A DNA stretch of 58,679 nt, taken from the NCBI GenBank assembly GCA_003599505.1, contig QZKO01000010.1:1-58679 (forward strand), given 5' to 3'. Source of the stretch: Nitrospiraceae bacterium (GTDB lineage Bacteria; Nitrospirota; Thermodesulfovibrionia; UBA6902). The translations under genes and the position numbers were made by a program. The notes beneath the pieces were generated by a model. That model did no database searches, had not been told where the DNA came from, and worked only from the letters and a program-made list of their open reading frames with translations. Within the stretch, counting starts at the first letter, position 1; every line of letters begins with the position of its first letter. Of this stretch, positions 7 through 49,970 are shown piece after piece.

Positions 7-423
7 TTATTTTTTAGCGATATCTCCATGTCCCCTTTTATTGCCGGTTTTAGTGATCTTGTTCAGATAGGATATTTTCTTTTTGTAGGACTGTATTTCC
101 TTCTCATACTTTTTCCTCAGTTCAAGTTTCTTCGATATCTCCTGCACTTCCTTATTCGATATGTGTTTGCTGATGACTTTTTTGCCATCCCGATATTTCA
201 GGTAAAAGTAGGAATATACTTTCCCCTTGTATCTCTTCTTCCTCTCGTTCAGAGAACCTTTTGGAAGCCCGGCTACAGACCTCTCAAGGCTGTCAAACAT
301 CTCCTGACAGCGTTTAAGTTCATCACCGAGCATCCCGCCTATGACCTTGTCTTTTTCCACCACTTTCATGCTGTTATTATGCTTTTTGTGGTGGAAAAGA
401 GCAAGGGCTTTGATCTGGGGCAA
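7..423 (-). CDS. Small basic protein resembling DUF6788
   Basis: A 138-residue, lysine-rich soluble protein with no signal peptide or membrane segment. The middle holds a LPKGSL stretch followed by a basic, aromatic segment (RYKGKVYSYFYLKYRDGKK), a pattern I associate with the DUF6788 family; the C-terminal third is probably coiled coil. The function is unknown. The TTG start at 423 is preceded by GGAG at a good distance; the first ATG is 18 codons further in (369). The opposite strand is also open over the same bases, but that reading lacks any family-like pattern. Confidence 0.55.
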   Translation of the reverse strand: MPQIKALALFHHKKHNNSMKVVEKDKVIGGMLGDELKRCQEMFDSLERSVAGLPKGSLNERKKRYKGKVYSYFYLKYRDGKKVISKHISNKEVQEISKKLELRKKYEKEIQSYKKKISYLNKITKTGNKRGHGDIAKK

Positions 424-436
424 TAACAGCTCCGAT

Positions 437-1618
437 CTATTCGGTCGTCCGTAATTTCTTTACCGCGTATCTGACAAGCTCCGAAAAATAGGCCGCGCCC
501 ACCCGCAGGGCCTCTTCGTCAAAGTCGAACCTCGGGCTGTGGGAAGGGGCGTTCTCCCGCCCTTTTATTCCTCCTCCGAACCTGACAAAACATCCCGGCG
601 TTTCCTGCAGGTAATAAGCGAAATCTTCACCCCCGAGCCCCGGGAACGGTATTAAAATCGTATTCTCCTTTCCAAGGAGCTCTTCAGAGACATGCTTTGC
701 AAAGCCGTAGGCCCTTTCTTCATTGATCACCGGGGGATAACCGGGCTTGAGGATAAACTGTATGTCCGCATCATGGAGAGAGGAAATGGAGGTTGTTATT
801 TTTTTAATCCTGTCGATCACCTGCAGCCTTATCAATTCATCCGTGGTCCTTATAGTCCCCTTTAATACGGCCCTCTCAGCAATGACATTATTCACTGTGC
901 CGGCCTTTATATATCCAACCGTTATTACAGCGGGGTGGAGGGGGTCGATGTTTCTTGAGATTATTATCTGAAGGTCCATGACAAGCTGGGCGGCAATCAG
1001 TACGGCATCGATGGTTTCATGAGGTCTTGCGGCATGTCCGCCTTTGCCGGTAACCCTTATTTCAAAGGCGTCGGTATAGGCTGTGTGAACGCCGGGTTTA
1101 AGCCCTATCTCTCCGGCAAGGTGATGCGTCTCAATGTGTCCTCCGAAGATCATGTCGACCCCGTTCAATACGCCCTGCTCAATCATCGGCCCGGCGCCGC
1201 CTTCGGTTTCTTCCGCGGGCTGGAAAATAAACACCACATTTCCCTCAGGGGGATTCTTGCTCAGGATTGCGGCAGCGCCTAATACAATCGCTATGTGACC
1301 GTCATGCCCGCAGGCGTGCATTGCCCCCTGGACCTGAGACGAGAATGGAAGGTTTGTTTCTTCGGCAACAGGCAAGGCGTCCATGTCAGCCCGCAATGCG
1401 ATAGTAGGGACATTTTGCCCCGCAGTTAATTTCCCCACAACCCCTGTGCGAGCGATCCCTGTTTTATGCTTGATGCCGAGCTCGTTGAGGGCATTAGAGA
1501 TAAGCTCTGCTGTCTTTTCTTCTTTATACGCGACCTCAGGATGCCGGTGAATTGCCCGCCTGATTTCTTTCATCCATTCATAGAGCTCTTCGTTTACTAT
1601 TTTTTTGATACTGTTCAT
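437..1618 (-). CDS. M20D-family amidohydrolase (N-acyl-amino acid / hippurate hydrolase type)
   Basis: A metal-dependent amidohydrolase of peptidase family M20D, which cleaves N-acyl groups from amino acids or related amides in the cytoplasm. The metal-binding motif HACGHDGH lies near residues 101-108, followed by QPAEET (catalytic and metal Glu, about 134-139), GGHIETHH, a central dimerisation domain beginning around VTGKGGHAARP, and a C-terminal SHSPRFDFDE segment that supplies the last metal His. About 393 residues, normal for the family. I start at 1618 because a GGAGAGG ribosome site lies 11 bases upstream; an in-frame codon 27 bases earlier is open but unsupported. The substrate cannot be read from the sequence. 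Confidence 0.9.
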   Translation of the reverse strand: MNSIKKIVNEELYEWMKEIRRAIHRHPEVAYKEEKTAELISNALNELGIKHKTGIARTGVVGKLTAGQNVPTIALRADMDALPVAEETNLPFSSQVQGAMHACGHDGHIAIVLGAAAILSKNPPEGNVVFIFQPAEETEGGAGPMIEQGVLNGVDMIFGGHIETHHLAGEIGLKPGVHTAYTDAFEIRVTGKGGHAARPHETIDAVLIAAQLVMDLQIIISRNIDPLHPAVITVGYIKAGTVNNVIAERAVLKGTIRTTDELIRLQVIDRIKKITTSISSLHDADIQFILKPGYPPVINEERAYGFAKHVSEELLGKENTILIPFPGLGGEDFAYYLQETPGCFVRFGGGIKGRENAPSHSPRFDFDEEALRVGAAYFSELVRYAVKKLRTTE

Positions 1619-45140: not shown

Positions 45141-47075
45141 TTACTTGCCTGTTCCTTTCTTAAAGATCGTTTTCAGAAGCTCCATATGCTTCGCGTCCGT
45201 CTTTGCAAAGCCTGTAACATCGGTGACCTTCTTCCATATTTCAGCGTCCTTTTGCGCATCGTGGCATGAAACGCATACATTGACCCTCATGATCCGGTCC
45301 TGTTCCTCTTTGTTAAAAGGTCTTGCGCCGTAATGATTCGTTGCCTGAAGCTGTTTCCCGTTTTCATCGACAATGCGTTCAAGTTCAAAGGGAATGTCTA
45401 CGCCGTTGGCTTTTGGATTGTAAATGCCGCCGCCGAGACCGATTGTTTTGCGGTTTGCGTGGCAGTCTTCGCAGGCCCTCGCCTCTTTTGCTATGGTATG
45501 CGGCTGTATGGGATTGTGCGCGATGCCGGAAAAACCGTCATATGTTGTAAAGACCTTGTTAAGCATCGTTGCCTTACCGTCCTGACCTATTTGTGTAAAT
45601 ACAACCTGACATCCGGGGATATATGGAGAGACCTTCCCCTCTGAGTTCCAGCCTAAAACAGGCGACTCCCATCTCAGATATGAGCGCGTTTCACTCCATT
45701 TGTATGTGGTCTTCTGCTTTGCCTCCATGTTTCCGGCTTTGGAAAGATCATCTCCCGGTTTTGTATTAATCCAGTCTCCGCTCTGTGTCTTTGTGTCCTG
45801 CTGCGCGTGGCAGCCATAGCATTGGGGGGCCCATTTTGCATGACAGGCGTAGCATTCCATCTTGTTCATGTGCGCTGATATGCCCATAGCTGTTTTCGCG
45901 AGGGGTGAGCCTTTTGAGACTATGTCCTTTGTCTGGGGAACGACCCTCTTTTTTCCATCCATTTTGGAGGTAAGGATTATCTTGTCGCCATCTTTCCTGA
46001 GATTATTGAGGGTATTGCCCCATGAAGACTTGAGGCCGCTGTATGTCTTTGCGCTTCCATGACAATCCTCGCATTCAATCTCAACAGCCTGCCATTTTTT
46101 ATTGTAGATGTTTCCGTCTCCATGCAGGTCCTGTATTGTATGACAATCCGTGCAGGTCATTCCTTTCTGATAATGTATGTCTGCCGTAAGATGGTTATAG
46201 AATTTTCCATGGAGTTTTTTACCGCCTTTTTTCCCGGCCTCGTCAGACCAGGGCGAACCGTATTCGTCGGACTCCATTGTACCGATATAGCTTACGCCTG
46301 TCCTCCCGCCTCTGTTATGGCAGTGGAGACACTGGTTTGAAGGAATTTTTGTGGTGATTTTATGGAGCTTCGGCCTGCCTTTCTGATTCTTGTCTATGGC
46401 CCGGTCGCTTCCTTCATATAGCCCGTTATCCGAATAGACAACATGACAAGCGGCGCAGCCGGAGGCCCGGTAGTCGCCGTCCTGTTGCGCGCCTTTTGAC
46501 CATAAATGACACCTGAGGCACTGATCTCTCAGATAGTCATCGGACGGGTGATTATCCTTCCCCATCGGTTTTGATGCGTCATACAGAGGAAGCTGTCTCA
46601 GTGATTTCACTGCCCCTTTTTTCTCCGGGACATTTCCATCTTTGTCTTCCACGTCATAGGTTGCATACAAGGAGTTTTTTGTATCCTGGGCCGCCCAGTC
46701 ATATCTTGTTCCACCTATCATCCCTGCCATTGTGGCGTGCATGGACTTCTTCGAGTTTGAAACGTCCTCCGCATGACAGACGCCGCATGTTTTATCGACG
46801 ACCCTTAAATCAGCAGGGTTTGCATACATGCCCTTATGAGCGTCATCCTTTGTCGCCCCGTCAGGATTTCCCATATGACACTGAGTGCACGCAAGCTGTG
46901 ACATGACAGGCGTGTCGGCAATGGGTTCAATACCTTCATGACACTTCAGGCAGCCGGCTTCCCCGGAAGTCGCTGCACCGGTCTGTTGACTGTAAATTCG
47001 GTCTGTTTTAAAAAACATCAGGCCAATCAACGCAACAGTTACAAGAAAAAATGCGGTAAATAATTTCCTTTTCAT
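45141..47075 (-). CDS. Dodecaheme c-type cytochrome
   Basis: A 644-residue exported cytochrome with 12 CXXCH heme-binding motifs: CLKCH, CTQCH, CGVCH, CLRCH, CAACH, CLHCH, CTDCH, CEDCH, CYACH, CYGCH, CEDCH and CVSCH. A signal peptide or membrane anchor is at residues 1-30. A 140-residue stretch between hemes 10 and 11 (KTTYKWSETRSYLRW...) has no heme and may form a catalytic or docking domain. The ATG at 47075 follows GGAGG. It is the last gene of a run with an ECF sigma/anti-sigma pair and a redoxin remnant. Electron partner and substrate unknown; octaheme-reductase-like families are possible. Confidence 0.9.
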   Translation of the reverse strand: MKRKLFTAFFLVTVALIGLMFFKTDRIYSQQTGAATSGEAGCLKCHEGIEPIADTPVMSQLACTQCHMGNPDGATKDDAHKGMYANPADLRVVDKTCGVCHAEDVSNSKKSMHATMAGMIGGTRYDWAAQDTKNSLYATYDVEDKDGNVPEKKGAVKSLRQLPLYDASKPMGKDNHPSDDYLRDQCLRCHLWSKGAQQDGDYRASGCAACHVVYSDNGLYEGSDRAIDKNQKGRPKLHKITTKIPSNQCLHCHNRGGRTGVSYIGTMESDEYGSPWSDEAGKKGGKKLHGKFYNHLTADIHYQKGMTCTDCHTIQDLHGDGNIYNKKWQAVEIECEDCHGSAKTYSGLKSSWGNTLNNLRKDGDKIILTSKMDGKKRVVPQTKDIVSKGSPLAKTAMGISAHMNKMECYACHAKWAPQCYGCHAQQDTKTQSGDWINTKPGDDLSKAGNMEAKQKTTYKWSETRSYLRWESPVLGWNSEGKVSPYIPGCQVVFTQIGQDGKATMLNKVFTTYDGFSGIAHNPIQPHTIAKEARACEDCHANRKTIGLGGGIYNPKANGVDIPFELERIVDENGKQLQATNHYGARPFNKEEQDRIMRVNVCVSCHDAQKDAEIWKKVTDVTGFAKTDAKHMELLKTIFKKGTGK

Positions 47076-47086
47076 GTTTCCTCCTT

Positions 47087-47400
47087 TCAATTAAGCAGCT
47101 CTTTCATATGTTTCTCCAGATCATCAGGCGCTTCTGTGCCTCTGTATTTTATAATTCCTTTTCTGTCAATAACGATATGAGTCGGCGTGCCCATGACCCC
47201 GAATGAATTGATGACCTTTCTGTCTTTATCAAAGATATTCGTGAAGCTCATCCCTCCGGTCTTAATATACTTCCTGACGCCTTCAACCCTTTCGTTTATG
47301 CCGACATTCACTCCTATAAACTCTATCCTGTCCGACAATTTTTTATGCAGCCCGCCAATGCGAAAATAAATACCACAGTTAATGCAACAAGTCTTTTCAT
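47087..47400 (-). pseudogene. TlpA/ResA-like thiol-disulfide lipoprotein, internal deletion
   Basis: Two pieces in different frames. From 47400 an ATG with AGGAG upstream encodes a lipoprotein signal (MKRLVALTVVFIFALAGC) and stops after 25 codons at 47323. Overlapping this, in another frame, 47338-47087 encodes the C-terminal half of a TlpA-like redoxin (FIGVNVGINERVEGVRKYI, VINSFGVMGTPTHIVIDRKG with the cis-Pro). The part that should carry the catalytic WCxxC and the first strands is missing, so this is a deletion with frame change. A functional copy would have kept heme-site cysteines reduced for the cytochrome downstream. An assembly error is the other explanation. Confidence 0.8.
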
Positions 47401-47410
47401 TGAATTTCTC

Positions 47411-48142
47411 CTAAAGTGTTTTTTTCAGTTCTTCGATACTTAAATCAGATACAAGGGCATACGTAACGCCCCGTTCCTGCCACAAGAGCAGGTTATAGCC
47501 TTTCCGCTCAACAACATGCACTTTTTTGTCCTTTAATATCACCTCCTCACCAGTTAATAATCTTTCAGGGTTCAGTTCGGTCGTCATAAACAGGGAAAGC
47601 TGTGAACCGCCGTGTTCATAAAAGATAAGGGCCAGTCGTTTCTCATCCAGCAGGCAGAGCCGCGCCCCCTTAAGTGTCGCAGACAGCCCGGGCACAACCG
47701 CCCCGAAATCCACCCTCCCGTTAAACCAGGTCTTTATCTCGCCGGGGTCCGATGAAATTATCTGTATACCCGAATATGACTGAAAATCGATATGGTCGTT
47801 GACGATCTTTTCAACGAGGGACGCTGTATCACTATGGAGTTTGACGATATACCCCCCGGCAAACAACATCAGTATCGCGGCAATGGATATGACTTTATAC
47901 AGCAATTTTGAATGTGTCTTCCTTGCGGGAACAGGTTTTAATAACAGCCGTCTCAGCTCCGAAGGCGCTTCATCTTTTGCGACTTTCTCCCTGAGCAAGG
48001 CTGAAAATGCCCTTTCCTGTTCAAAGAACGTCCTGCATTCAGGGCATTCATTTACATGCCTTTTTGCCTCAACCATTTCCTGAGTGACTACCTCAGGAAA
48101 TTCGGACAGATAGGTTGTTTTTCTCGCATTGCTGCACTTCAT
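47411..48142 (-). CDS. Anti-sigma factor with zinc-binding ZAS motif
   Basis: A 243-residue single-pass membrane protein. The cytoplasmic N-terminus holds HVNECPECRTFF, the HxxxCxxC zinc motif of ZAS anti-sigma domains (His29, Cys33, Cys36); a membrane helix is at about 82-102; the rest is periplasmic and holds the late FMTTELNPERLLTGEEV... region. It would hold the upstream ECF sigma factor inactive until a signal, probably redox or envelope stress, is perceived. Its ATG overlaps the sigma factor stop (ATGA). Confidence 0.88.
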   Translation of the reverse strand: MKCSNARKTTYLSEFPEVVTQEMVEAKRHVNECPECRTFFEQERAFSALLREKVAKDEAPSELRRLLLKPVPARKTHSKLLYKVISIAAILMLFAGGYIVKLHSDTASLVEKIVNDHIDFQSYSGIQIISSDPGEIKTWFNGRVDFGAVVPGLSATLKGARLCLLDEKRLALIFYEHGGSQLSLFMTTELNPERLLTGEEVILKDKKVHVVERKGYNLLLWQERGVTYALVSDLSIEELKKTL

Positions 48143-48681
48143 GCTTTTTTCTCCTTTAAAAGCCCTTTCTTTTTCGCGTATTCACAGAGGGCGTCTCTCA
48201 ACAGTCTCCGGCCCCTGTAAAGCCTTGAGGCCAGAGTTCCGGAAGAAATTTTAAGAATGTCTTCAACCTCCCGATATGAGAGCTCTTCCAGATCTACAAG
48301 GACAACCGCCATCCTGAACTCAACAGGCAGATTGTCAACGGCGTTCTTTATCTCTTCATCCATGACCCTTGAGAATATTTCATTCTCCAGATCGAAATAT
48401 TGCCCGCTTTTATAAAAAACAGGTTCAAGGAATTCAGTTTCAACCTCTACCTCCAACGGACGTGAATGTTCTTTCCTGTATTTATTGATGAATGTGTTTG
48501 TAAGTATCCTGAAAAGCCAGGCCTTTGCCTTGCCTTCAGAGCGCAGGGAGCCGAGATTCTCAAAGGCCTTCATACACGTCTCCTGCACCAGGTCTTCGGC
48601 GTCTTCCCTGTTTTTTGTAAACCTCATGGCCGTAGACCAGAGGGAATCAAGGTGTTTTTCTATCAATTCTCTGTATTCCAT
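48139..48681 (-). CDS. ECF RNA polymerase sigma factor
   Basis: A 180-residue extracytoplasmic-function sigma factor. Region 2 (LWSTAMRFTKNREDAEDLVQETCMKAFENLG) binds core and the -10 element, and region 4 (ELSYREVEDILKISSGTLASRLYRGRRLL) the -35 element. The following anti-sigma gene overlaps by 4 bases. The operon continues through the damaged redoxin to the dodecaheme cytochrome, so that cytochrome is likely its regulon member. The gap upstream contains repeated AAAGGCC words but no clear ECF promoter. Confidence 0.93.
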   Translation of the reverse strand: MEYRELIEKHLDSLWSTAMRFTKNREDAEDLVQETCMKAFENLGSLRSEGKAKAWLFRILTNTFINKYRKEHSRPLEVEVETEFLEPVFYKSGQYFDLENEIFSRVMDEEIKNAVDNLPVEFRMAVVLVDLEELSYREVEDILKISSGTLASRLYRGRRLLRDALCEYAKKKGLLKEKKA

Positions 48682-48845: not shown

Positions 48846-49490
48846 TTATTTAAGTATTTTTGATTCCGGATATTTCTTCTGCCATTTCCCCCATTGAACA
48901 TCGTCAGAAGAAATTTTTGGAAGCACTTGTCCGAAGTGCTTTCCCTGGATCCCTTTAAGCCCTTTTCTGGCCGGATACCAGAGCGTGCCGCTTTCTTTGT
49001 CGTACAGCACAAAGGTGTTATTGTAGGTCCATCCTGAAGGCGCGATCGTCAATGTCTGCCCATCGAGCTCACGGCTGTACACAGCCGCCAGGTCTGAGAG
49101 GGGTCAATAGCCGACAGCAATCGGTTTAGAGCCGATAGCGCTGTTTGCGACCTCATGACTGCGGAGTTTTTGCACGGAATACGCCTGTGCGCTTGCTCCC
49201 TCTTCAACACCTATGACGCGAAGGTCGTCAGGGACGTCTTTTTTGTCATCACTCAGGCCGGAAGCATCGAGAGGGAGAATTGCGTCTTTCCCAATACCAT
49301 ACTGAAACTTGTCAGGTTTGAATCCAATTGATCCCGCTTGCGTGACATCCCATTTATACCCTGTCTTATCCACAATATAGGTCTTGCCCCCTTCTCTGAC
49401 TACAGGAGCGGACGGTGCGTCCTGTTTTGTGCAGCCTGTAAAACTCATGATTAAAACAGCAGCAAGTATCATACTTTTTACCATCGCCAT
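48846..49490 (-). CDS. DUF3179 lipoprotein with in-frame UGA (selenoprotein candidate or nonsense mutation)
   Basis: A 214-residue DUF3179 protein read through one TGA at 49104-49106 (residue 129). Residues 1-20 form a lipoprotein signal (SFTGC); then FQYGIGKDAILPLD, DLRVIGVEEGASAQAYSVQKLRSHEVANSAIG. At the UGA, relatives have the Cys of the CPL motif; here it reads GY-UGA-PLSDLAAVYSREL and continues in the same frame with DGQTLTIAPSGWTYNNTFVLYDKESGTLWYP. A hairpin CGGCUG-UGUA-CAGCCG starts 17 bases after the UGA. No other interruption exists. Either selenocysteine is inserted or a TGC/TGT codon mutated; decayed genes upstream favour caution. AGGAGGT precedes the ATG. Confidence 0.75.
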
Positions 49491-49503: not shown

Positions 49504-49788
49504 CTATTTTATTAATGAATTCCAGTCAGAAGAGAATTTTTCCATGCCCTTGACAGTCAGATCGTGATTAATATCATAATCCTGCCAGTCCCGGGACAGG
49601 TCTATGTCCTTATATGAAATATCGTTCAGCTTCCTGGAATCATAGACATAATCATCTGCCGGCATCGGGAGCCCTTTCTCTCCCCATTCCTTCAAAATGC
49701 TATGCGGCGCTGTGATTATATCCGAGCCGAGATAAAGAGCATACATCATGTGGTCAAATGTCCGGACGCTCGCGGTCAGGACCAGCAC
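49504..49788 (-). pseudogene. Transaldolase, C-terminal fragment
   Basis: About 94 codons matching the C-terminal third of a TalC-like transaldolase: LVLTASVRTFDHMMYALYLGSDIITAPHSILKEWGEKGLPMP, ending DYDINHDLTVKGMEKFSSDWNSLI. The N-terminal barrel, including the Schiff-base lysine strand, is absent; the sequence upstream changes character at about 49800 and hits a TGA in frame. This is a remnant left by deletion. The next fragment on the other strand belongs to an unrelated enzyme, so at least two genes have decayed here. Confidence 0.75.
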
Positions 49789-49970
49789 GTGACCGTCATG
49801 CCGTTTTCTCCCCTGTCATCAAGGCGTTATCTGCCATCTTATGCTCCTTTTCCGTTTCTGTCAAATTCATTTTCCCTGAACGTTCAAAGAATTCTCCATA
49901 CTTTTTAGGCACGGCATCGATAGTGGCTTTATAAAAAATTATATCAGGAACAGACAGGATGTCCAGTCTA

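Follow-up and report, generated by a model that had tools for sequence, protein, structure and literature searches.

A split DUF3179 gene and its neighbourhood

On the minus strand of the window, by which we mean the whole 58,679-nt stretch of DNA analysed here, two open stretches (49490..49107 and 49103..48849) lie in one frame and are split solely by a TGA at 49106..49104, and the second terminates at a TAA (48848..48846). Read through the TGA, the gene (48846..49490, minus strand) comprises 214 codons plus the stop, with a single in-frame UGA as codon 129, and has orthologues described below. The 214-aa read-through protein matched the Pfam DUF3179 model PF11376 with 109.3 bits against a curated cut-off of 27, and the match extended over residues 82-214, thus crossing the UGA. 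This codon (49104..49106, minus strand), which is very probably decoded as selenocysteine (U129 in GY-U-PLS; KPIAVGY-U-PLSDLAAVYSR in the read-through protein), falls where the family has its invariant Cys, the first residue of CPLC/CPLT in the long forms. A signal peptide with a lipobox is predicted from the sequence at 49431..49490 (minus strand), the lipobox reading SFTG-C20 in the window protein and SLIG-C in the 86% identical protein of a sister Nitrospirae MAG (L015). Cys20 is the sole Cys codon, leaving the mature protein with its lipidated Cys and no other. What standard ORF calling splits in two would thus be one selenoprotein gene; the window also holds 25 other TGA read-through frames in a mechanical listing. 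The initial annotation had proposed two same-frame halves of one DUF3179 protein separated only by TGA, a UGA in place of the conserved Cys of a CPL motif, and a signal peptide with lipobox, all of which were borne out.

Directly upstream of the gene lies a transaldolase remnant on the same strand (49504..49788 or, more broadly, 49504..49826, minus), reduced to its C-terminal third, so that the decay initially remarked on next door is real. The transaldolase is intact in L015 (2014-2985), where the counterpart of the DUF3179 gene follows it along with cytochrome c, glutaredoxin-like and DsrE-like genes (the last three assigned by reading of the sequences), and upstream of the window remnant only short stretches matching the sister region are left. 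The DUF3179 gene thus appears to have survived intact beside decay, and its expression is not assured with a decayed upstream gene.

Several other features were observed around the locus and in the same genome. Just downstream of the gene, 47411-48681 (minus) encodes a sigma factor of the ECF type together with an anti-sigma factor that shows weak similarity to RsrA, a redox sensor; L015 has different genes at this place. A multihaem cytochrome at 45141-47090 (minus) resembles ExtM of selenite/tellurite reduction operons, at 305 bits and below the cut-off of 800, and a fragment of a ResA-like thiol-disulphide oxidoreductase lies upstream of it (47087-47338). Elsewhere in the genome, a DUF3800-V RNA motif match was found at 396-491 (minus) of L035, with 43.5 bits, above its cut-off.

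Selenocysteine decoding genes in the genome and its relatives

The genome to which the window belongs is a draft of 87 contigs and 95% completeness. It carries selB, which scored 365 bits against a cut-off of 242 and follows proS, between that gene and a rho-like gene (G000:C18:32084-33943). In-frame UGA codons were also found in selD (context AGG-U) and in each of two fdhA copies, one of which reads CARV-U-H, the classical site; selD and this fdhA copy are each followed by a hairpin of their own after the UGA. In all four genes, selB and the three with UGA, the frame is complete or, where cut by a contig edge, partial but still open; contig C49 starts within an fdhA copy (profile position 114). 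selA was not found in this draft. No tRNA-Sec (selC) reached the cut-off in the draft, with 150 of 252 first-look candidates scored, and ARAGORN detected none in about 140 kb of targeted stretches plus the window. The initial annotation had pointed to selA, selB, selC and selD as the genes that should accompany the locus; selB and selD (itself with a UGA) are present in the genome, and neither selA nor tRNA-Sec was detected in the draft.

Among the relatives, selA was identified in 12/12 genomes and tRNA-Sec in 11/12, with the anticodon UCA confirmed by ARAGORN, and both were present in all six other genomes checked that harbor a UGA-containing DUF3179 gene. Four relatives were inspected for gene order, and in each of them selB adjoins selA, unlike the selB of the window's genome. 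A synteny search for the selA/selC gap found the genes that flank the relatives' selA-selB at other places in the draft and located no such gap.

These absences, together with the unlike context of selB, could be explained by a recent loss of Sec decoding, in which selA and selC would have disappeared and DUF3179, fdhA and selD would persist as undecayed relics. We consider this very improbable, given that selB and the three other UGA genes retain their reading frames, that the draft is incomplete and fragmented, with one contig breaking inside an fdhA copy, and that nearly all relatives keep both genes. It is more likely that selA and tRNA-Sec are missing from the draft than that they have truly been lost.

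Conservation of the UGA, selection and the downstream hairpin

A TGC or TGT codon changed to TGA by nonsense mutation in a dying gene would differ from a selenocysteine codon by nothing visible at this locus, as a single base change would look identical, and the truncated transaldolase adjoining the gene would fit such a pseudogene. This reading was evaluated against the conservation of the codon, the selection acting on the two halves and the sequence that follows the UGA.

A scan of species genomes yielded four relatives, the sister MAG L015 and three Calditrichota MAGs (38-39% identity), and TGA occupies the identical codon in all four, including the close sister, in which a TGC or TGT codon alongside other inactivating mutations would have spoken for a pseudogene. 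The equivalent codon is likewise UGA in L030 and L031/L130, two more Nitrospirota lineages, and in numerous genes from Calditrichota (34-44% identity). Of 198 Nitrospirota genomes searched with PF11376, 14 contain DUF3179; short forms occur three times (in the window's genome, L030 and L031/L130), all with the internal TGA, whereas the long forms inspected residue by residue have Cys in CPLC. DUF3179 was present in 21/40 genomes collected under the phylum to which the Calditrichota MAG is assigned, and the Calditrichota copies include many short UGA forms, long UGA forms (UPLC, UPLA) and long Cys forms (CPLC, CPLT). Cys and UGA therefore alternate precisely at the invariant Cys column, the alternation that the homologue alignment suggested initially had been meant to reveal, and H112, E113, N116, U/C129, P130, L131, G153, D164 and W171, among others, are invariant in short and long forms. 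The short-form motif reads UPLS in the window, with S/I/V/E/Q/R as the fourth residue across short forms. Every aligned short form has UGA and none has Cys, apart from one aberrant paralogue with Ser; a Cys-bearing short form was sought in plasmid records, where the DUF3179 genes examined with annotated ends were all long. Taken together, the alignments indicate that the UGA is ancient and conserved, and not a recent nonsense mutation.

The Ser-bearing paralogue is one of three short DUF3179 genes clustered in L121 (4,001 bases around the L017 locus, Calditrichota); in this copy, which is without UGA, Ser replaces Sec and the PL motif is altered (AAVYSGFFEK).

Substitution rates between the window gene and L015 (NG86) were comparable on the two sides of the codon, with dN 0.084 and dS 0.935 before the UGA, and dN 0.064, dS 1.08 and dN/dS of about 0.06 after it. 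These values indicate purifying selection on the part beyond the UGA, which is constrained at least as much as the upstream part and is thus not explained by a stop.

A SECIS-like hairpin, CGGCUG-UGUA-CAGCCG, is located at 49072..49087 (minus strand), separated from the UGA by 16 nt, as the initial annotation had noticed; the outer CUCA/UGAG helix suggested alongside it was rejected, being absent from the predicted fold and not conserved in L015 or L030. The loop begins 22 nt past the UGA and reads UGUA, with G in position 2, followed by U. In the published bSECIS consensus model, the loop lies 16-37 nt from the UGA and has a G in one of its first two positions (PMC13188914), and the window hairpin agrees with it in both loop distance and loop G. 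The 49-nt fold of the region is moderately unusual (z = −2.2), and mean folding energy did not separate Sec from Cys genes; the argument for the hairpin therefore rests on comparison across genes. In a gapless alignment of 29 distinct UGA genes, covering 45 nt from the UGA, 91.4% of cells in the stem columns 17-22 / 30-35 were paired, compared with 22-50% when the columns were slid by 1-3 positions, and both-sided changes were observed at 4/6 pairs. For the Nitrospirota genes, pairing improves when the register is moved by three bases (CGGCUG/CAGCCG, 6/6), the GUGUAC core staying the same. When the better of the two registers was taken, 5-6 of 6 pairs formed in 30/30 UGA genes, whereas the 21 Cys genes averaged 3.9, and the summed pairing of 170 exceeded the maximum of 143 in synonymous-codon shuffles, lying about 8 SD above the shuffles, these pair counts and the shuffle comparison treating related sequences as independent. 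By this comparative evidence, the hairpin is conserved and covarying in the UGA genes, and the Cys genes have no comparable hairpin.

A UGA at the equal codon in orthologues of two phyla, including Calditrichota proteins of only 34-44% identity, two equally constrained halves and a covarying hairpin leave the pseudogene reading even less probable than a recent loss of decoding. The least credible alternative is that a 128-aa protein ending at the UGA is the functional product, with the remainder translated separately (a GTG at 49082 lies inside the hairpin region) or not at all, given that the conserved core (UPL, YSR, GW, D, W) is at or past the UGA, that the Pfam match crosses it, and that a confident structure model (pLDDT 91) has beta-strands on either side of it (122-129 and 134-139). 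Selenocysteine insertion at UGA-129, as the initial annotation supposed, is strongly supported on sequence grounds by four independent lines: orthologues of two phyla keep the UGA, purifying selection acts on what follows it, the hairpin is conserved and covarying, and the genome contains selB along with UGA-bearing fdhA and selD.

Proposed function, predicted fold and known DUF3179 proteins

We therefore read the locus, with a probability of roughly 94%, as one functional DUF3179 lipoprotein gene in which UGA-129 is decoded as selenocysteine via SelB and the hairpin, the selenol replacing the invariant Cys and most likely acting alone. The product would be a periplasmic or outer-membrane lipoprotein. 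During its synthesis, SelB bound to the hairpin just past UGA-129 would bring Sec-tRNA, so that the UGA is read as selenocysteine and a selenol comes to occupy the place of the invariant Cys. As lipidated Cys20 is the only Cys of the mature protein, the selenol most likely has no partner there: it could carry out a 1-Sec redox or peroxidase-like reaction that an external thiol resolves, or serve as ligand to a metal or an electrophile. We infer lone-selenol chemistry outside the cytoplasmic membrane as the working mechanism.

No solved-structure relatives were significant in sequence searches. The structure model was derived from UGA forms of both lengths, and its residues 97-203 align to Rieske-type beta-sandwiches: ranks 1-29 were all Rieske proteins, with Z from 7.2 to 3.3, and the first unrelated row had Z 3.2. 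The top alignment (VIA-align; Z 7.2, 94 residues, 2.8 A) came with the tool's warning that Z < 8 may reflect a common arrangement. The Foldseek comparison with the Rieske-like fold was not significant (E > 0.1), profile comparison with Rieske (hhalign) gave a probability of < 1%, and the Rieske ligand set C-x-H...C-x2-H is absent from the sequence of the window protein. Rieske homology had also been considered from the spacing H112-x16-U129 and was dropped, as the aligned ranges place U129 away from the cluster loops and the profiles were negative. The predicted fold thus resembles a Rieske-type beta-sandwich, and the protein is not filed as a Rieske protein because Foldseek and profiles give no support, Z is below 8, and U129, by the aligned ranges, seems to lie off the iron-sulphur ligand positions.

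The initial annotation had raised the possibility of a new selenoprotein family, which does not hold, since DUF3179 is already listed as one, with the motif UxxC/T, in two reviews that cite one original study (PMC9312934, PMC13188914). PMC9312934 names this study as Zhang and Gladyshev 2007. Some DUF3179 members also bear the NCBI name '(seleno)protein'. The work of Zhang and Gladyshev in 2007 reportedly concerned a DUF3179 selenoprotein of an Olavius symbiont. The window gene is a new member of the known DUF3179 selenoproteins, and the family itself is not new; the survey extends these selenoproteins, on strong comparative evidence, to Nitrospirota and, widely, to Calditrichota. A short form with a lone Sec narrows the function of DUF3179, as the reaction in the window protein would have to use a single selenol and no partner Cys. 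Tentatively, the short DUF3179 lipoproteins of Nitrospirota and Calditrichota may form a nearly obligate-Sec subfamily, the window selenol being solitary on a Rieske-like beta-sandwich without iron-sulphur ligands and possibly a new kind of selenol active site, an idea we hold to be possible but doubtful.

Among known systems, the Rieske ferredoxin domains (TodB, carbazole dioxygenase ferredoxin and NirD) share the structural alignment over model residues 97-203, whereas their sequence profiles are unrelated, the window protein is without the ligand set, and U129 is seemingly off the cluster ligands. Long-form Cys DUF3179 proteins of Nitrospirota and Calditrichota share the invariant residues from H112 to W171 named above, with C129 in place of U129, but have CPLC or CPLT, lengths of about 300 aa or more and no comparable hairpin. 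The closest counterparts are the listed DUF3179 selenoproteins, which share PF11376 and Sec at the same conserved Cys position. Compared with these, the window protein belongs to a short form of about 214-230 aa that matches no more than the initial part of the Pfam model, and it falls outside the listed UxxC/T motif, with its Cys or Thr three residues after Sec, in that the fourth motif residue is Ser here and Ile, Val, Glu, Gln or Arg in its relatives.
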